A stretch of 64,000 nt of DNA from Sulfurisphaera javensis (GTDB lineage: Archaea; Thermoproteota; Thermoprotei_A; Sulfolobales; Sulfolobaceae). Positions 4,376-64,000 of the stretch are shown here, in pieces. The stretch is taken from assembly GCF_041154675.1 (NCBI RefSeq), contig NZ_AP031322.1:868001-932000 (forward strand), given 5' to 3'. A model generated the notes under the pieces. It made no database searches. It was not told the DNA's origin and worked only from the letters and a program-made list of their open reading frames with translations. Each line of letters opens with the position of its first letter. Position 1 is the stretch's first letter. The position numbers were made by a program, and so were the translations under genes.

Positions 4376-5773
4376 ATGAGTGATGAAGTAAGTTTTCATA
4401 AGAATGTTATATCCAGTTATAGAGCAGTGTTAAGTCGCCTTGGCATGGATGTAGATATAAAAAAATTTCTTTATAATCTTAGAGGTAGGGGATACGATTC
4501 TAAAATATTGTGTAATTTGAAAAGCTTCTCAGAATACCTTGATAAGCTTGATTCTTCAATAATTGACCATGTTAAACATATACTTACTGGAGTTAAAATT
4601 ACTGATGTAGATGATATTAACTATGTTCAAAATTTTATTAACAATATTTTTCGCTATAAGGAATTGATATCTAAATCAGAAATAATGGAAATATTAGCAG
4701 CAGAGTTAAATTACTCGAACATAAGTGTATTTCGTCGTGTAGCACACAATTTAGATGGTTTCATCAGAGAAAATGTATATATTAGCAAGTATATTAAGTC
4801 TATTAATCAAAAACTTAAACTAAAGGGAAAAGCCGAAATTAGTTTAAGATGTTTGCAGATAAAGAATATTGATGAAAATAGAAACATAGAAAATTTTTTA
4901 GCTGAACGGAAACGTGCGCTAGCTCGGCTTGATGAGCTTACTACTTTATATCTAATGTTAGCTTCTGATTATTATCCTTTAAAAGATGTATTTATGAAAA
5001 TTGATAAGATTTTAAATTCGATAAAAGAATGTGATTATGAATTATTTAATATAGGTAAATTAGATAATATTTACGATGAAGCAAAAGATAAAATGAGGGA
5101 AAGATTCGAAAACATAATAAGGAACCTCAAGCAGTTAAAGGAAAGCTATTGTGAATTAAGTAATAAATTTGATTTAAAAGTAAATTGTAATTTTATTGAA
5201 AATAACATTAATGAAATATATAATTTACAAAATGCTTATTCACAGATGAGAAAAAGCCTAGATGAACTATATATATATCTCCTTAAAGTTGAAAAAATAA
5301 AATGCCAAATTATTGAATATATAATTAACAACTTTTCTATTAAAAGTATTTCAATTTCAAGTGATGGTAAGAAAAAAGGTTCAGAATTAATCAAATATAT
5401 CGATATGTTTGGAAAGTTTATAGATAGTTTAATTTATTTGGCAAATAGTGAGATAGTTCTATCCATAAGATCTTTGCAGATAACTACTGCTGATGTATTT
5501 TATCATGCCATGAGACAAAAAAGTGAGAAAATTAAAGAAGTAGAGAGGAAATTGAATGAGAATAAGCCAGATGAGGCTATAGCTGTTCTTAACGAAATAA
5601 TGAAGGAAAGTCCTAATGATGCTTACTACTACTATTATGCTAAAGCATATATTCAAAAAGGAATGTATGAAGAGGCACTTAAAATGTGCGAAAAAGCGTC
5701 ATCAGCAATCCCTAGATATGAATATTATGAATGCTGGGCCGAAATTGTGAAAAAACAGAATACTAATGGTTAG
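4376..5773 (+). CDS. Coiled-coil protein with C-terminal TPR repeats, defence-island component of unknown function
   Basis: I do not recognise a family for the full length. From the ATG at 4376 it has about 465 residues; a GTG at 4319 would add 19. The middle is rich in Lys, Glu, Ile and Asn, with long predicted helices and coiled coil. The last 70 residues hold two TPR-like units (KPDEAIAVLNEIMKESPND and the MYEEALKMCEKA segment). No catalytic motif was seen. It is 47 bases upstream of the Cas4-like nuclease on the same strand and converges on the DUF1998-helicase genes. It may be a scaffold or sensor for the nuclease (inference from position only). Confidence 0.75.
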   Translation: MSDEVSFHKNVISSYRAVLSRLGMDVDIKKFLYNLRGRGYDSKILCNLKSFSEYLDKLDSSIIDHVKHILTGVKITDVDDINYVQNFINNIFRYKELISKSEIMEILAAELNYSNISVFRRVAHNLDGFIRENVYISKYIKSINQKLKLKGKAEISLRCLQIKNIDENRNIENFLAERKRALARLDELTTLYLMLASDYYPLKDVFMKIDKILNSIKECDYELFNIGKLDNIYDEAKDKMRERFENIIRNLKQLKESYCELSNKFDLKVNCNFIENNINEIYNLQNAYSQMRKSLDELYIYLLKVEKIKCQIIEYIINNFSIKSISISSDGKKKGSELIKYIDMFGKFIDSLIYLANSEIVLSIRSLQITTADVFYHAMRQKSEKIKEVERKLNENKPDEAIAVLNEIMKESPNDAYYYYYAKAYIQKGMYEEALKMCEKASSAIPRYEYYECWAEIVKKQNTNG

Positions 5774-56373: not shown

Positions 56374-56907
56374 TTAAACAAGAATAAGATATAGTATAAT
56401 GCACAAATAAAATAGACTACCCATAATGAACCATAATTTAGCATTATCAATTTGTTTAATCTTTCTCCTTATTAATGCATCTAATCCAAAATCTTGTGAT
56501 CCTTTATAAATTAGATAAAGTTCAATGATCATCATAAGTAAATTTATTCCGTATTCCTCAGTATCTACCCAAAAAGCGGATAAAAAGTAAATTAGGTTTG
56601 TATAAAATGCTATAGTATTTGTTAATCTTGTCATTAAACCAAGGAGGTTAAATATCCCAAAAGTTATTTCGCCTATCATTACTAATTCTCCGACAAGCAA
56701 AACATGAGGCAAAACAACTATCTGTAAAAATTCTCTCATTATAGGACCTTGCATTAATACTTGAATAGTTATACCAACATAACTTGTAGAAGAAGGATTA
56801 AGATATCCTGAGTTCAATAATTTTTCAAATACTCCAGCATAGATCCAAATAGTAGCTAAAGCAAGTCTCATGAAATTGGGCCAAAACTCAATTTTCAATT
56901 GACTCAT
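56374..56907 (-). CDS. DoxD-like membrane protein (thiosulfate:quinone oxidoreductase subunit family)
   Basis: 177 residues, four to five membrane helices, the right length for DoxD (about 20 kDa). ALATIWIYAGVFEKLLNSGY and VGELVMIGEITFGIFNLLG match the DoxX/DoxD fold. In Acidianus ambivalens, DoxD with DoxA oxidises thiosulfate to tetrathionate and reduces quinone. No DoxA was recognised beside it. Its ATG overlaps the upstream gene by four bases. A general DoxX protein is the alternative. Confidence 0.6.
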   Translation of the reverse strand: MSQLKIEFWPNFMRLALATIWIYAGVFEKLLNSGYLNPSSTSYVGITIQVLMQGPIMREFLQIVVLPHVLLVGELVMIGEITFGIFNLLGLMTRLTNTIAFYTNLIYFLSAFWVDTEEYGINLLMMIIELYLIYKGSQDFGLDALIRRKIKQIDNAKLWFIMGSLFYLCIILYLILV

Positions 56908-57803
56908 AATCTCACTCTCCTTGCTAATTCATTTGAAATTTTATAGATCTCATAAACTCCTATACCAATTAATACAAAACCTAAAAGAGTAGGTGAAGAA
57001 AGAAAGAGAGCTTGAAGAATTCCTCCAGTCCAAGTACCAGCTAAGAAAGTTCCATATTTCCACATAATTCCCTTGGTTAATGGTACATTTGACAATAGGA
57101 AAAGAAGAGAATTCATAGCAGTTGGAGTTAAACAACATATTCCAGCAATCGTCCCTATTGAAGGAACTGAAGCACTAAGAAAGCCAGCTAAAGAATTAAA
57201 TGAAGTTATTCTGAAAGAACTGGGAATTTTCCATTCATAAGCGTTTAATGAAACATAGATTAATGACATTATGTAATAACCTAAGATTAAGGCTATTGAA
57301 AGAACTATGTCATTAATAACTCCTAAAAGAATTAACCAAGGGTTTAAAACAAATGGTCCTACTATATTTAGGCCAAAACCCTGATAAGATATTTCTGTTA
57401 ATGGTACAAAGTAAGGACTTACATTTATGTTCGGTACAAGTAAAATTCCAGAGACAATCATAAAAGAAATAAAATAGGCTAAAGAATAAATAATGACCAT
57501 CCATTTACCAAAACTATCCTTTAAAGTTGCTTTTATTACGTTCCTTAATCGCATAGGACCAGAGACTAAAATAAATCTCCCTCTTCTCATTCTATAAATA
57601 AAATATCCAATAGTAGAAGAGACAACTATATATATTATACAAATAAGTAAAAAGTAGTTTAAAAATGATACTTGACCAGATGTAGTAAGCGGATAATACC
57701 AGAGCATTTGCACTCTTAAACCAGTAATTATTATAGGCAAGAAAACTGTAGCGTTATAAAAAACGAATACATAGAAAAAAGGATTTATTTTCAATTTTAA
57801 CAC
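56904..57803 (-). CDS. Integral membrane protein of unknown function in a DoxD operon
   Basis: 299 residues with six or seven membrane helices. A notable Cys pair sits in the segment GTIAGICCLTPTAMNSLLFL. No family recognised. It overlaps the DoxD-like gene and abuts the beta-propeller gene (start 57803, propeller stop 57805), so the three form one operon, probably a membrane redox or export complex. Confidence 0.6.
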   Translation of the reverse strand: MLKLKINPFFYVFVFYNATVFLPIIITGLRVQMLWYYPLTTSGQVSFLNYFLLICIIYIVVSSTIGYFIYRMRRGRFILVSGPMRLRNVIKATLKDSFGKWMVIIYSLAYFISFMIVSGILLVPNINVSPYFVPLTEISYQGFGLNIVGPFVLNPWLILLGVINDIVLSIALILGYYIMSLIYVSLNAYEWKIPSSFRITSFNSLAGFLSASVPSIGTIAGICCLTPTAMNSLLFLLSNVPLTKGIMWKYGTFLAGTWTGGILQALFLSSPTLLGFVLIGIGVYEIYKISNELARRVRL

Positions 57804-57804
57804 C

Positions 57805-59031
57805 TCAGCAATGTAATCCAGTTATCGGTGGTAATAACACGTTATCTACTAAGTAAGTTGCGGTTGAAACACTTACTGGTAACACAAAGGCTGGAGCAGT
57901 AGTTAAAGGTACTTCATATGCTATGCTTAAAGTCTGCAAATTAATTAGTACAATCATACCTCCACTTGATACTGAACCATGGATAATAACATAAGCATAA
58001 CTCCCACCAGGAGTAATTCCTATACTAGCTAAACCAGCTGGATTTATACTTGGTAATGAAATAGTGTTGACTATTTGAAAGTTAGAGGTGGATATAACAA
58101 CTATCTCATCTTTATTTGAAGGAGCTTCTAAATAATATTGGCCATTAGGTGTAAAAGCACCTCTCTGAGGAACAACACCAGATGGCATTTGAACCATTCC
58201 TAGATACTGTAAGCTTGGAAGTGAGTAAAATCCAACAGAGTTATTTCCAGCATATTCTACAGCCACCATTGTTCCTTGCTCATTTGGCGAAACCATATAA
58301 GGCTGAGAACCTAATGATGTAACTAAAACTTTTGCGACACTTCCATTTGAGGCATATATTAAGTCAACTGAATCATTGAATCTTAATGGAACTATTAAAT
58401 AATCACCATTTGGAGTCCATCTGACATCACATGGATAATAGGTCTTTCCAGTCGGAGAAACAAAAGTATCCTTCCAAATAACTTGCAAATTCTGTAAATT
58501 AATGACTTCAACTGCACCGGATGGTCCATCAGCGATAGCAACGTATTCTTCATTTGGCGAATATGCAACACCTATAAATCCTATGCTTTTACCAACACTT
58601 AAATTTCCAACAACTTTCATTGTTGTAGGGTTTACAATATAGACTGTACCGTTATTAACTGGAATAACGATATAAGAAGCATTAAACATTCTACCGTTTA
58701 GAAGCTCATCCCAATAATAGATTTGTTGAGGTACATTAACTGAGATGTTGACAACATGCTGAAAACCTAGGAAACTTGAGGTTTGAGAGAATGGATTTAT
58801 TGCTTGAACAATTCCCTTCTGAGTAAATACAAGCAAGTAGAAATTATTATTAACTGAAGTTGACGTAGAAGAGAATGAAGTTGTTGGTGTAATAGAAGTC
58901 GTAGTAGAAGTACTAGAGCTTTTCATCATTATATAAGCTGCACCTATTCCTATTAGTAAAATTATAACAAATCCTACTAAAAGTAATATTTTGTATGTCA
59001 TTCCCCTTTCAAGTTTACTAATCTTCTTCAT
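57805..59031 (-). CDS. Membrane-anchored beta-propeller (YVTN-like) protein
   Basis: 408 residues. A basic start and one membrane helix (about 12-34), a Ser/Thr-rich linker, then seven-bladed YVTN-like repeats: [29 protein letters not shown] and [15 protein letters not shown] mark separate blades. The C-terminus ends with a Cys (ITGLHC). The domain is outside the cell. Such propellers bind proteins, metals or quinone-type ligands. It heads the operon with the membrane protein and DoxD-like genes, so it may be their external partner. Confidence 0.65.
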
Positions 59032-59108: not shown

Positions 59109-59441
59109 TTAAATTGTAATTATTAAATCTACTTTATCAATTACAGCCCTATAAAAGTCTGGGAAACAGCCAACTTTAGCAGAATCAATAAGTTTGTCAG
59201 CGACATCTCGCATATAAGCACACTGATCACAAGCTTGTAAATAGATCCCTTTTTCTTTTGCCAGCTTATCTAGTCTTTCAGCTATTGGATTCCCCTTTAA
59301 GAGTAAATAAACGTTATCATGAATAAAGAACATTCCAACAACCTCAACATAATGTCTATTTTCCTCTAACTGAGGTACTATCATATTTCCTAATATGTAG
59401 TTTCCAAGATTTGATTCAACTATATAAGCTACTTTTTTCAT
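59109..59441 (-). CDS. DsrE-like (SaoD-type) protein
   Basis: 110 residues from the ATG at 59441. The fold is DsrE-like: KKVAYIVESNLGNYILGNMI, VEVVGMFFIHDNVYLL, and a CDQCAYMRDVAD Cys pair followed by KVGCFPDFY. The paired Cys are typical of sulfur-relay DsrE/SaoD-type proteins. It overlaps the preceding gene by 26 bases. It is part of the sulfur-transfer set at this end of the window. Confidence 0.65.
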   Translation of the reverse strand: MKKVAYIVESNLGNYILGNMIVPQLEENRHYVEVVGMFFIHDNVYLLLKGNPIAERLDKLAKEKGIYLQACDQCAYMRDVADKLIDSAKVGCFPDFYRAVIDKVDLIITI

Positions 59442-59757
59442 ATACAATCTCCCTAAACTCTTTTATAGTTTTACTTACTATATCATTAATTGTAAGTCCT
59501 TTTATTGATCTAATAAATTCCTCAAGATTTTTCTTTTCCTCAAACGCTTCGCATAACGCTTCTAATGTTATTATAACTATTGGACATTCTGAAGATCTAT
59601 ATGTTATTTTCTCTCCATCAAAATACAATTTAAACCATCTTGACTCATCAATTTTTACATCACCTATTTCTTTTCCTTTCGGTCTATTATACATTCTTTT
59701 CATTAGAAATTCAGATGCATATTTTCTTGTTATTGCACAACCACATTCATCTTTCAT
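59416..59757 (-). CDS. Hypothetical protein next to sulfur-transfer genes
   Basis: 113 residues, start ATG at 59757. The N-terminus has CGCAITRKYASEFLMKRMY, then a beta-rich stretch (WFKLYFDGEKITYRSSECPI) and a helical tail. The two early Cys and a third at about residue 58 suggest a metal site or sulfur handling. No family recognised. It sits between the DsrE-like gene and the TusA-fusion gene on one strand. Confidence 0.5.
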   Translation of the reverse strand: MKDECGCAITRKYASEFLMKRMYNRPKGKEIGDVKIDESRWFKLYFDGEKITYRSSECPIVIITLEALCEAFEEKKNLEEFIRSIKGLTINDIVSKTIKEFREIVYEKSSLYS

Positions 59758-59791: not shown

Positions 59792-60742
59792 TTAAACTTT
59801 ATGTTTGAGATAAAATACATTACTTTCACCCTCAATAGGAAGATACTTTAAAGCATCTTCGTCATAAAGAGTTTTATCTTCAATGTCTAATCTAACAGCA
59901 AATATCTTCTCTCCATTAACTAACGCTGTAAGTAACCAACCTCTGCCTATAGGCGCTGAAGAAACTAACGTAAGTCCTTCATATTTTAAATCTTCCTTCT
60001 TAATTGCATTAACTGCTTTTTGACTTACTATTTGATCGAAATAAGAATATAGAAACGCCCTAAATTCTCCCTCTTTTATTAGTTGCTTGATTTCATTTTC
60101 TTTCTCTTCTTCTATGGCTTCAACAAATTGAGAGCAGGTCTTTGTGTTTCCAAGCTTAACAAAAATAAAAGAAGCATAATCACCCATGTTATATATCTCA
60201 TATCTACAGTTGAAGAGCCTTGCTACTTCTGGGAGTGTATACTCAATTGCAGCAGGATTATCAACTAAAACCTCTAGTACTTTTCCTTTTTCCATACTAT
60301 ACAATTTTTGTTTTGTTTTTATTTCTGGTACCGGACATGAGTAACCTCTCAGATCAAGCACTTCGTCCGGATTAGTTTTAAATAGAGCTACTTTTTCCGT
60401 ATTATTTTTATGTTCTAATTTAGTAATTATTTTTCCATATTCTTCTATGTTCTTTTTGATTCTATTCAAAAGACTGTTTAAGATTATCGATTCACCCTCC
60501 CCTTTTATTTCTATCATATTACCATGGATTTCTATTGAAATTTTGAATTTTCCATTTTTATCAAAAATCTCTAAAGAACTTGTCCTTTTAACTATAAAAC
60601 AATTAAATTTTATAAACCTCATTAATTCAATGTAGCCTTCGTAACCCCAATCTAGTTTTTTAATATTTTTAAGACAATATAATTTATAAAATCTTTCTAT
60701 ATCTAGTATCATATCTGGGTTAGATAACTTTAATTCCATCAT
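59792..60742 (-). CDS. Three-domain protein with central TusA domain
   Basis: 316 residues. Residues 1-110 form a helical and beta domain I do not recognise. Residues 125-197 are a TusA domain with the persulfide-carrying Cys136 (LRGYSCPVPE) and VDNPAAIEYTLPEVARLF. Residues 205-316 form a C-terminal domain (KAVNAIKKEDLKYEGLTLVS, then a strand with RGWLLTALVN). TusA proteins pass sulfane sulfur from thiosulfate or polysulfide to partners. The fusion may join sulfur transfer to an unknown acceptor. The neighbours are DsrE-like and TusA genes. Confidence 0.75.
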   Translation of the reverse strand: MMELKLSNPDMILDIERFYKLYCLKNIKKLDWGYEGYIELMRFIKFNCFIVKRTSSLEIFDKNGKFKISIEIHGNMIEIKGEGESIILNSLLNRIKKNIEEYGKIITKLEHKNNTEKVALFKTNPDEVLDLRGYSCPVPEIKTKQKLYSMEKGKVLEVLVDNPAAIEYTLPEVARLFNCRYEIYNMGDYASFIFVKLGNTKTCSQFVEAIEEEKENEIKQLIKEGEFRAFLYSYFDQIVSQKAVNAIKKEDLKYEGLTLVSSAPIGRGWLLTALVNGEKIFAVRLDIEDKTLYDEDALKYLPIEGESNVFYLKHKV

Positions 60743-60844: not shown

Positions 60845-61060
60845 ATGGAACTAAATCTCATAGGCTTATGTTGCTCACAGCCTCATTTGTTAGTTTATTC
60901 AAAACTGAGAAAAATGAAAGAAGAAGAAAAACTTAGAATTATAACTGATGATGTTACTGTTATAGAAAGAGATATAATACCCTTAGCGAGAACATTCAAT
61001 TGCAAATATTTAGTAAAGAAAGAAAATGATAAATATATAATATATTTAGAAAAAATTTGA
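60845..61060 (+). CDS. Short, degenerate TusA-like protein
   Basis: 71 residues, close to TusA length. ELNLIGLCCSQPHLLVYSKL keeps the Cys-x-x-Pro spacing (Cys10 and Pro13), but the first Pro of CPxP is Ser and a second Cys precedes it. The rest (LRIITDDVTVIERDIIPLAR, TFNCKYLVKKENDKYII) follows the TusA fold. It is divergent from the TusA-fusion gene. The altered motif may change its sulfur chemistry. Confidence 0.6.
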   Translation: MELNLIGLCCSQPHLLVYSKLRKMKEEEKLRIITDDVTVIERDIIPLARTFNCKYLVKKENDKYIIYLEKI

Positions 61061-61132
61061 ATTAAAATTTTTAATAAAAAATTAACAATTTCTAATAAAA
61101 TTTATATAGACACAAAAACATACTTAAGTTTG

Positions 61133-61495
61133 ATGAACTTAGAAGAGAAATTGGAAAATGGAAACCTAATGAAATTTTAGATGTTAGAGGAGAAGAATGT
61201 CCTATTCCAGAAACTCTTGCAGCTAAGAAATTAAATAATATGGGAAATTTTAGAGGTTTTGACTGATCATCAACCAGCAGTATATGTAACATTACCTTAT
61301 CTCGCGAAAAGATTTAGTTACCCTTATCTAGTTATACGAAAGGAGGACTACTACATAGTTAGAATAATTAAAGTTTCAAATGAAGAAAAGGGAACTATAG
61401 AGCTAAATAACGAGATTCAAGTGAATTTGTCATTTAAAAAGTTGTTGAAGCTTTTTAGATTCATCTATCTTAATGAGTTTTGTTCCACAAGTTAA
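61133..61495 (+). pseudogene. Frameshifted tusA copy
   Basis: An ATG at 61133 begins MNLEEKLENGN, then the frame changes to NEILDVRGEECPIPETLAAK. After NNMG it changes again to [20 protein letters not shown], and runs on to a TAA with a tail not found in TusA. The DNA around 61250-61290 is nearly identical to the intact tusA at 62014-62055, so it is a recent copy or was converted. The active-site Cys is present but the two shifts disable it. Confidence 0.65.
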
Positions 61496-61895
61496 AAGAG
61501 TTAAGAAGATCAATTATTCTGCTTATTCATTATCAATGAAGTATATTATTCCTTTTGAGCTCCCTTTATTTGTAAAACGTGAAGAATATCCTAATACGTC
61601 TATAATAAAATCGAAAGCTCAAGTAAAATAGCTTTTTTGAAAGCTACACTTGGATTTGACTTCTTTATTTATGCTCATAGGGGATACACAGGAATAAGAG
61701 TTAGAGAATGGTATGAGGGACCATTAAAGTTTATGTGGAAAAAAGAAATCAACAACCACATTAGATTGGCTAGAGAAAAACTTCCCTCTTATTTAGTTAA
61801 ATTAATATAATTAATTTCAAATCAATTTATATAAAGGTTTAAAAAGAGGTATTTTTTAAAAACATGCTTTTCTTAATTATTATTAGGGGGTTAAA
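61496..61895 (+). other. Debris between tusA copies
   Basis: Broken plus-strand frames read INYSAYSLSMKYIIPFELPL and, after a shift, FLKATLGFDFFIYAHRGYTG and WYEGPLKFMWKK, ending near 61810. They look like one decayed gene of unknown family. The last 85 bases carry the promoter and leader of the intact tusA. Confidence 0.4.
61886..61891 (+). promoter_or_regulatory. Shine-Dalgarno-like site of tusA
   Basis: GGGGGT lies five bases before the ATG at 61896. Most genes in this window look leaderless, so a strong G-rich site points to a message with a leader. An upstream T/A-rich box lies near 61838-61848. Confidence 0.5.
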
Positions 61896-62147
61896 ATGAG
61901 TGAAGATCTTAAATTTAAAAATCCGGACCAAGTGTTAGACGTTAGAGGAGAATCATGCCCAGTACCAGAAATGGAAGCAAGCAAAAAATTGAGAAAGATG
62001 AAGGTAGGAGAGCTTTTAGAGGTTTTGACTGATCATCAACCAGCAGTAGATGTAACATTACCTTCATTAGCTAAAAATCTAGGATATCCTTACTTAGTAA
62101 TTAAGGATGGGGAAATTTACCGTGTAAGGATATTAAAGGTGAAATAA
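61896..62147 (+). CDS. tusA: TusA sulfur carrier protein
   Basis: 83 residues, full length. [19 protein letters not shown] holds the sulfane-sulfur carrier Cys21 in the CPxP motif. The protein ends in a beta strand ([11 protein letters not shown]). TusA shuttles thiosulfonate or persulfide in dissimilatory sulfur oxidation by Sulfolobales. The stop is three bases from the YeeE-type transporter start, so they are co-transcribed; import of thiosulfate followed by transfer to TusA is a plausible pairing. Confidence 0.9.
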
Positions 62148-62150
62148 CTT

Positions 62151-63380
62151 ATGCCACCCAGTATGGTATTGCAGCCATTTTATAACGAAAGTTGGGCCCT
62201 TATATATGGACTATTTGGTTTAAGCGGGTTTATTTTAGGTTGGGTGGCTCAAAGGGGTAATTATTGTTTTGTAAATGCAATGACTTCTATTTTTACAACA
62301 AAAAGTTATGAGAGATTTGGAGCACTTTTAATCTTATTTGGTCTTTCCGCTTTAGGTTGTGGTCTTTTAGTAGCATTTGGAGTAATTCCAGCAGTTGATC
62401 AATACTTTTTTAATTATTTTGCTGGTTGGTATATATTAGTAGGTTCCTTTATTTTCGGATTTGGTGCTGCCTTGGCTGGTGGATGTAATTTATCAATGTT
62501 ATATAGGGCTTCAAGTGGTTATGTTCAGAATTGGATTGAATTATTTGGAATGATGATAGGTACTTATATATTTGCAATAGGCATTTGGCCATTCCAACAA
62601 TATACAATGGAAAAAGGAATTTTTTCAACAACAATGGGAGGATATGTCGAGTATTTACCTTATGTAATATTTCATTCAGTTTCTCCGATGGCTGTTTATA
62701 TTACTACACTTTTGCTCTCTTTACCTTTAATCATACTAGGAATATACCTACAACAATATACGAAGAAAAAATGGGGAATGAATTTTAGAGTGAATTTACC
62801 AGGAACTATGGCATATAGACCACCAGGAAGCGTTGCCCTAGGAAAAGAAGAAGAGAAAAAGAATTGGAAAAAAGAAGCATTAGATATGTTATTATTAAAG
62901 AAGCCTTATGGAACAAACTTGTCTACAGTAATTTTAGCGTTAGATATGATCTTTGTGTTTATTGTAGGAGCCGGTTATACATTCAATTATTTGGTAATTA
63001 CTTCCTCTGATGGAGGGAGATTCTTTGAATACCTTCTGATGTTACCTGGAGTAAACTTATTCTTAACTACTCCATGGTTTAACGATGCATTGCCAATAGT
63101 TGATCCTAGTACTCTAATGGTAGTTATGCTTTGTGTTGGAGCTTTTGCCGCATCTTTTTTAAGTGGTGATTTTAAAATAAGAATTCCAAAAGAGAAAAAG
63201 AGACTTTTAATAGGTTTTGTTGGTGGTATCTTAGTAGGAATTGGTGTTAGAATGGCATTAGGTTGTAATGTTGGATTAATGTGGACCAATTTTGCTCAAT
63301 TAGGATATGATGGTATAATATTTCTATTTGGAATGTTAGGAGGCGTATGGTTAGCTGTAAAGATTCAAGAGAGGTTATGA
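62151..63380 (+). CDS. YeeE/YedE-family thiosulfate/sulfur transporter (TsuA-like)
   Basis: 409 residues with about nine to ten membrane helices and two repeated halves. The family Cys motifs are present: AQRGNYCFVNA, AGGCNLSMLYRA and ALGCNVGLMWTN. In TsuA, such Cys residues line the path and pass thiosulfate by transient bonds. It sits directly after tusA and before a small membrane protein and a DsrE-family gene, giving a sulfur-uptake operon. Confidence 0.85.
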   Translation: MPPSMVLQPFYNESWALIYGLFGLSGFILGWVAQRGNYCFVNAMTSIFTTKSYERFGALLILFGLSALGCGLLVAFGVIPAVDQYFFNYFAGWYILVGSFIFGFGAALAGGCNLSMLYRASSGYVQNWIELFGMMIGTYIFAIGIWPFQQYTMEKGIFSTTMGGYVEYLPYVIFHSVSPMAVYITTLLLSLPLIILGIYLQQYTKKKWGMNFRVNLPGTMAYRPPGSVALGKEEEKKNWKKEALDMLLLKKPYGTNLSTVILALDMIFVFIVGAGYTFNYLVITSSDGGRFFEYLLMLPGVNLFLTTPWFNDALPIVDPSTLMVVMLCVGAFAASFLSGDFKIRIPKEKKRLLIGFVGGILVGIGVRMALGCNVGLMWTNFAQLGYDGIIFLFGMLGGVWLAVKIQERL

Positions 63381-63383
63381 AAA

Positions 63384-63656
63384 ATGGTGGAGACCAAGTA
63401 TATTAGAAAATTACTAGCCCCACTAGTCCTATCCCTATTTGCGATTGGATGGTATCAATTTAGTAAAATATATTTGACTCATGCTGATAGCTTAGCGTTA
63501 AGCAATGCTAACTTTGCAGTTTACGTTCAATCTCAGGAGTTCAATGGTTACCTTACAGCTACGAAGTATATCTGTTACGCAATAGTTTACGTTGGACTTC
63601 TACTCTTTTGGTATAACTTGGTGAAATTCGTGGAGGTGAAAGAGAACCATGGTTGA
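63384..63656 (+). CDS. Small two-helix membrane protein in the sulfur operon
   Basis: 90 residues with two membrane helices (KLLAPLVLSLFAIGWYQF and ICYAIVYVGLLLFWYNLV) and an outside loop. No family recognised. It begins four bases after the transporter stop and overlaps the next gene (ATG at 63649) by eight bases, so it is part of the same operon, perhaps as a transporter partner. Confidence 0.65.
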   Translation: MVETKYIRKLLAPLVLSLFAIGWYQFSKIYLTHADSLALSNANFAVYVQSQEFNGYLTATKYICYAIVYVGLLLFWYNLVKFVEVKENHG

Positions 63657-64000
63657 TTATGCCATAATGATGGTTTCTGGAGATAATGAGAAAATATATA
63701 TGGGTATTATAACTGCAATTGGTTTGGTCTCTGGAGGAAATAAAGTTTACATGTTCTTTACGATGGATGCATTAAAGGCTTTGACTCCTGAGAGTGAAAA
63801 AATAATATTAACCAACGCTAAACCATTAAAGTATTACATTGATAACCTTTTAGAATTAGGTGGCGAAGATGTAAAGATTGTTGCATGTGAATTTGGTATG
63901 AAAGTAAAGGGAATAAAAGAGGAGCAATTTATTTATCCAGTTAAGCCTAGTGGAGTATCTGAATTTGCTCTGAAAGCTAATGAAGCAAAAGGAGTTCTAA
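63649..64000 (+). CDS. DsrE-family protein, partial (3' end outside window)
   Basis: 117 codons are visible. DYAIMMVSGDNEKIYMGIIT, LVSGGNKVYMFFTMDALKAL and the later GGEDVKIVACEFGMKVKGIK match DsrE2-like proteins, with a Cys at the usual carrier position. In Sulfolobales such proteins work with TusA in sulfur transfer. The gene overlaps the preceding small membrane protein. The end is cut by the window edge. Confidence 0.7.
   Translation, partial: MVDYAIMMVSGDNEKIYMGIITAIGLVSGGNKVYMFFTMDALKALTPESEKIILTNAKPLKYYIDNLLELGGEDVKIVACEFGMKVKGIKEEQFIYPVKPSGVSEFALKANEAKGVL

Follow-up and report, generated by a model that had tools for sequence, protein, structure and literature searches.

The window (the whole 64,000-nucleotide stretch analysed here) carries on its minus strand an open reading frame with an ATG start that spans exactly positions 59792 to 60742 and encodes a 316-aa product, to which we assign three domains on the basis of the ORF, Pfam and a structural model. 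The middle part, aa 127-198 (60149..60364, minus strand), is a TusA domain by Pfam, predicted fold and alignment. PF01206 (TusA) matched aa 128-189 with an E value of 7e-16 (58.2 bits against a Pfam cut-off of 28.6), and no Pfam family matched the flanks above cut-off. A reading of the sequence without database searches (the sequence-only reading) had placed a TusA domain in the middle of this protein, with Cys136 in a CPVP motif, and both points were borne out. The Cys136 codon lies at 60335-60337. In an alignment of 22 full-length proteins (that of the window and 21 orthologs; the broken copy of genome G022 was left out), C136, P137 and P139 were present in all 22 and C179 in 21. PF01206 was likewise matched by each of the 22 proteins at E values up to 0.1. 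The domain is an ordinary member of its family, and its putative function would be sulfur transfer via Cys136. In a TusA-domain tree, which has few columns, the TusA parts of all 22 proteins group together, with one very long unrelated row among them. The genome of the window, a single contig of 2.57 Mb, yielded nine TusA matches, seven of them above cut-off.

TusA had also been described as normally a free carrier. This is mostly so, yet fusions are known, among them YedF (TIGR03527), which we take to consist of TusA plus DsrE, and a YeeE-YeeD protein. The latter occurs naturally as a single chain, according to the accessible part of PMC11073785. The three-domain protein gave no match to the YeeD/TsuB model NF041048 up to an E value of 0.1, and its match to the YedF model reached 27 bits against a cut-off of 110, restricted to aa 129-204.

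The flanking parts were studied with an AlphaFold2 model of the full protein (mean pLDDT 83.1; pTM 0.58, so that the mutual arrangement of the domains is not fixed). The only stretch with a pLDDT under 50, aa 109-122, lies between the N-terminal domain and TusA, within a linker of aa 109-126 (60365..60418, minus strand). The TusA part of the predicted model aligned with TusA and YeeD structures at Z scores of 12.0-14.3; for 3lvj the Z score was 13.1, at 1.7 A over 76 residues. For the N-terminal domain, aa 1-108 (60419..60742, minus strand), the predicted structure alone indicates a START/Bet v 1-like helix-grip fold, with the topology strand, two helices, six strands and a long helix. The solved structure that it matches best, 2ejx (Z score of 10.6 at 3.4 A over 113 residues), is that of STK_08120 from Sulfolobus tokodaii, a protein also solved with myristate (3w9k), and CoxG (8uds) is found among the matches with a Z score of 7.9. 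DUF3211, the family of STK_08120, has reportedly been published as a family of fatty-acid carriers, in a study that presumably concerns this protein. Of the 50 structure matches listed for the full model, seven cover TusA; the other 43 cover roughly residues 1-112, and we take these to be START/Bet v 1-type proteins.

With Foldseek alone, the best START-type match of the full model had an E value of 5e-3, and each of the five matches under 1e-3 was to TusA or YeeE-YeeD. No START-type Pfam family was found in the N-terminal domain of any of the 22 proteins at E values up to 0.1, a comparison of this domain with PDB sequences gave no START match up to an E value of 10, and profile comparison with a START-like set returned a probability of 0.6. 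Members of the START/Bet v 1/SRPBCC superfamily often diverge past sequence detection. The model suggests a START/Bet v 1 topology for the N-terminal domain, to which sequence methods are blind.

The C-terminal domain, aa 199-316 (59795..60148, minus strand), is common to START-like two-domain proteins of other Sulfolobales, as indicated by profile search and model. Modelled alone, it reached a pLDDT of 92.3. No solved fold was matched by this model (best Foldseek E value 0.033; best VIA-align Z score 4.4 among 998 chains), which does not make the fold new. Its profile weakly matches further proteins in the order, and nine such places were fetched; a place in G013 was left out, as were the counterparts that L113 and L114 have within their genus. 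At six of these (L106, L108, L109, L110, L111 and L112), reading of the sequences showed proteins of 260-378 aa with a START-like N-terminal part and the same C-terminal part, but without TusA, and L107 has the same C-terminal part in a shorter frame. L113 and L114, the latter of which came from the N-domain search, were rejected as apparent chance matches. When the class was searched with the L111 protein, 31 of 229 genomes gave matches, some of them covering only its Pro/Ala-rich linker; from 30 loci of this type 19 proteins were aligned, and 11 were left out because the frame was cut or the match weak. Within the 19 two-domain relatives, Polyketide_cyc2, a START-type family, was found in nine at E values up to 0.1 (best 7e-5; for L112 the bit score lay under the cut-off) and DUF2226 (PF09987) in two (best 7e-4), the latter in none of the 22 three-domain proteins. 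Comparison of the C-domain profile with the START-like two-domain set gave a probability of 90.6 over 56 columns, and with a second protein pair 82.1 over 45 columns.

Because the C-terminal domain recurs in START-like two-domain proteins that lack TusA, the simplest reading is that such a protein received TusA in its linker, where the N-terminal domain would be linked to these relatives by predicted fold and architecture and not by sequence. The three-domain make-up proposed from the sequence is supported by the predicted folds, which show three folded domains with a truly built-in TusA; both flanks, which might have turned out to have no fold, are confidently predicted.

Beyond its TusA part, the gene was found in 23 of the 60 genomes searched, including that of the window, and was missing from 37, one of which (G019) retains a relic of about 35 codons. 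The spread of the architecture in Sulfolobales had been suggested as a check, and when 197 genomes sampled across the order were searched by profile, 23 were positive, all within the 31 sampled genomes of Sulfolobaceae, the window's family of thermoacidophilic, sulfur-oxidising archaea; none of the other 166 sampled genomes has a three-domain gene at an E value of 1e-25. A contig scan identified four loci, in Metallosphaera yellowstonensis, M. javensis, Candidatus Aramenus sulfurataquae and Sulfolobus sp. UBA167, whose genera (Metallosphaera, Aramenus and Sulfolobus) we take to belong to Sulfolobaceae. Averaged over the 21 orthologs, the N-terminal domain is 34% identical to that of the window protein, TusA 63% and the C-terminal domain 43%. 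In seven chosen pairs, dN/dS was at most 0.184 in 20 of the 21 domain comparisons, the remaining one being saturated. All three parts are under purifying selection.

That a sequence error joined neighbouring genes, or that the flanks are without a fold, has next to no chance of being right: the gene of G022 is interrupted in the N-domain, between N-domain and TusA, and the final residues of the L049 copy are out of the common frame, but 21 full-length orthologs besides the window's are single ORFs in genomes of other species, which led us to reject fusion by error, and confident predicted folds and purifying selection speak against it as well. Separate genes in orthologs, which the sequence-only reading had named as a possible refutation, were thus not found, with G022 as the sole exception. 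At that locus (L031, about 4510-5340) the N-domain is broken, and TusA and the C-domain still form an open frame of 210 aa.

On the minus strand, the three-domain gene is followed in order by genes for a 113-aa protein, a SaoD-like DsrE protein, a probable beta-propeller protein, a 299-aa protein and DoxD. The 113-aa protein (59416..59757) has near-invariant C5, C7 and C58 and was found in 21 of 23 stretches; profiles revealed no family. Near-invariant CGC and CP motifs were also seen in it. The DsrE-family protein (59109..59447) has near-invariant C73, C76 and C94 and is SaoD-like with 137 bits, below the NCBIfam cut-off of 169. The beta-propeller assignment (57805..59031) comes from sub-cut-off profile matches alone; this protein has a near-invariant C201, a likewise near-invariant C-terminal His-Cys and, by reading, an N-terminal hydrophobic segment. 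The 299-aa protein (56904..57803) is hydrophobic, by reading probably a membrane protein, with a CC motif (C223, C224) in the alignment. The DoxD homologue (56374..56907), identified by profile and genome search, has no DoxA neighbour. DoxD occurs at three places in this genome, with DoxA beside the other two only. The genes at 56374-59031 (minus strand), encoding DoxD without DoxA, the CC-motif protein and the beta-propeller protein, are possibly a different quinone-linked sulfur oxidase module.

The plus strand carries, in order, a CCS-type TusA, a broken gene, a free TusA, YeeE, a small hydrophobic protein and a DsrE protein. The first (60845..61060; ORF, Pfam) is a TusA paralog with CCS in place of CP. 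This CCS-type paralog (CCSxP for CPxP) was seen at 12 of the 23 loci at 50 bits or more. The free TusA (61896..62147; ORF, Pfam) has CPVP and ends 3 bases before yeeE. YeeE (62151..63380) is by profile a YeeE/YedE-type sulfur-compound transporter, with near-invariant C39, C112, C328 and C372. It is followed by the small hydrophobic, by reading probably membrane protein (63384..63656; ORF, alignment), with near-invariant C64, and by the DsrE-family protein (63649..63999), with near-invariant C80, which extends past the end of the window. The broken gene at 61130-61880 is what is left, split across frames, of a gene for TusA plus a START-looking part. An intact version of 232-247 aa is present in three genomes of the same genus, and six Metallosphaera genomes have a related protein of 213-227 aa at another site. 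The START label of these 213-247 aa TusA proteins is given by pattern; their C-terminal half found no START support in Pfam, in PDB sequences or by profile comparison.

As judged by tblastn, DoxD, the 299-aa protein and the beta-propeller protein are present at all 23 loci of the three-domain gene. The SaoD-like DsrE and the 113-aa protein are found at 21 and are absent from stretches L050 and L052. YeeE, the free TusA, the small hydrophobic protein and the following DsrE protein are also found at 21; at L044 and L030 the stretch or contig ends before these four, and yeeE was located elsewhere in both genomes. Near-invariant cysteines are present in seven of the eight non-TusA neighbour products, DoxD being the exception. 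Gene order and the orientation of the three-domain gene to the module vary among loci, which indicates that the linkage is more than one frozen operon.

Within the family, 23 of 31 genomes have the three-domain gene, and these same genomes all have a cluster-type YeeE (at 166 bits or above) as well as the 299-aa protein; the other eight have none of the three. Random placement would give this co-occurrence with a probability of 1.3e-7, a figure that ignores shared ancestry. Three genera (g5, g7 and g9) contain both states, and the three genes agree each time. In G019, the three-domain gene breaks off after some 35 codons and is succeeded by the final 25 codons of yeeE; the genes for the small hydrophobic protein, the DsrE protein and the CCS-type TusA are kept. 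Compared with the gene order in the sister genome G011 (L038), a single deletion of about 6 kb would have taken the three-domain gene, yeeE and everything between them. The deletion scar lies at L034 6001-6185.

A second, distant YeeE-type gene is present in the genome of the window (G000:C1:335055-336116, 64.7 bits) and has its own family distribution. G001, which we take to be S. tokodaii, carries a cluster-type yeeE. In the accessible part of PMC11323534, a sulfur-induced yeeE is said to be absent in S. tokodaii; the induced gene is therefore probably the second, weaker YeeE and not the cluster-type one. We set this sulfur induction aside as evidence on the cluster yeeE, since it probably concerns the other gene.

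The sequence-only reading had further suggested channelled transfer of sulfur to a specific acceptor. The neighbourhood hints at partners, but an acceptor inside the fusion found no support: at no position is a flank cysteine common to all 22 proteins. The commonest ones, both in the N-terminal part, are at position 107 (10 of 22) and position 48 (8 of 22), and in 12 of the 22 proteins the C-terminal part has no cysteine at all. This makes an internal cysteine acceptor shared by the whole family unlikely. One flank resembles a domain for docking or for binding a ligand and the other is uncharacterised, so that the carrier is better described as 'localised' than as 'internally channelled'.

We tentatively propose, at somewhat less than even chances, that the protein is a membrane-docked TusA carrier whose START-like and C-terminal scaffold holds it close to YeeE and to the DoxD module, and which takes over sulfur at the site of uptake. 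Through the scaffold, TusA would stay on the cytoplasmic side of the membrane, beside YeeE and the DoxD, 299-aa and beta-propeller products. YeeE would bring in thiosulfonate or sulfane sulfur, which may then be loaded onto Cys136, either directly or through the free TusA and DsrE proteins, and Cys136 could pass it to a soluble acceptor (other TusA/DsrE proteins and finally an Hdr-like complex) or to the DoxD module. Fold (predicted), distribution and linkage were computed; docking, cargo and direction of transfer we infer by combining the domain anatomy with three published observations, each cited here from the accessible part of the source. YeeD, a TusA-type protein, binds YeeE, and its conserved cysteine matters for binding and carries thiosulfate-derived groups (PMC11073785); in M. 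cuprina, thiosulfonate is handed from DsrE3A to TusA (PMC4175335); and CoxG-like proteins of S. acidocaldarius hold a soluble glycerol-3-phosphate dehydrogenase at the membrane (PMC11962113). Several points count against docking. With its gene ending 3 bases before yeeE, the free TusA is a more obvious partner of YeeE, the three-domain gene is not always oriented in the same way relative to the module, and the N-terminal domain combines weak Foldseek matches with the lack of a START match in sequence. Moreover, START-like domains are better known as ligand binders than as anchors.

The START-like domain might bind a hydrophobic partner, such as caldariellaquinone, a long polysulfane or S8, and the protein would be a two-site enzyme or a shuttle with sulfur on Cys136. 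We regard this as possible but doubtful. The fold matches to the myristate-solved protein and to sterol and hormone binders are in line with a ligand, as is DoxD, of the thiosulfate:quinone oxidoreductase subunit family, in 23 of 23 neighbourhoods, in the window without DoxA beside it. On the other hand, the domain is short, at about 108 aa, and the CoxG-like protein of S. acidocaldarius is an anchor that is dispensable for quinone reduction, as stated in the accessible part of PMC11962113.

The strict co-occurrence with YeeE would also suit a sensor of sulfane sulfur, in which loading of Cys136 alters partner binding by the flanks and controls uptake, for instance by gating YeeE. Thiosulfate weakens YeeD-YeeE binding, possibly via loading of YeeD (PMC11073785, accessible part), but in profile searches the three-domain protein matched neither a DNA-binding domain nor a known signalling domain above cut-off, and we consider a sensor unlikely. 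No more probable is that the flanks merely stabilise TusA or position it for DsrE proteins, as parts of a relay complex in the cytosol that has no role at the membrane. The SaoD-like DsrE gene lies in the same stretch at 21 of 23 loci, and DsrE3A-TusA pairs are known relays in M. cuprina (accessible text of PMC4175335); the stretches L050 and L052, however, lack the SaoD-like DsrE and 113-aa genes and yet have the three-domain, DoxD, 299-aa and YeeE genes. An even longer shot is a combined function, in which TusA was inserted in an old archaeal START-like two-domain protein and sulfur held on the cysteine, together with a quinone or hydrophobic sulfur in the START cavity, would couple thiosulfate uptake to membrane electron transfer via the orphan DoxD/beta-propeller complex.

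Whichever role applies, the three-domain gene flags a conserved, co-inherited set of genes for a transporter, carriers, DsrE proteins, DoxD and membrane-type proteins, and its product offers one handle on where sulfur is handed over. In the accessible parts of the respective papers, the route by which sulfur reaches the cytoplasm in Sulfolobales is named as a gap (PMC8551704), and the thiosulfate and tetrathionate uptake systems of M. cuprina are given as unidentified in a figure legend (PMC4175335). The three-domain architecture, the START-like link and the co-occurrence were not found in the literature, surveyed mostly short of full text, and a search on some M. sedula locus tags returned nothing on the three-domain gene. 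The joining of a sulfur carrier to a START-like scaffold (predicted fold) is likewise a combination that did not turn up in the literature searched.

When compared with known systems, the set resembles by description the 'sulfur island' of M. cuprina (Mcup_1706 to Mcup_1724), which holds DsrE, TQO genes, a sulfate-transporter-domain gene and TusA; the accessible part of PMC4175335 is silent on a TusA protein of three domains and on the co-occurrence. YeeD/TsuB is likewise a TusA-type carrier that accompanies a YeeE gene, and YeeD binds YeeE (PMC11073785, in its accessible part), whereas here the YeeD model is unmatched and the module has an extra free TusA directly before yeeE. TusA is also fused in YedF, but in the three-domain protein it stands in the middle. 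Members of the TusA/SirA family (PF01206) share the domain, the CPxP cysteine and the predicted fold; these are mostly free proteins of about 80 aa, whereas here two flanking domains are added in one chain of 316 aa. Finally, the CoxG-like START proteins of Sulfolobales and DUF3211 (STK_08120) have the helix-grip fold in common with the modelled N-terminal domain, without detectable sequence similarity, and differ from the protein described here in that the latter unites this fold in one chain with a sulfur carrier.
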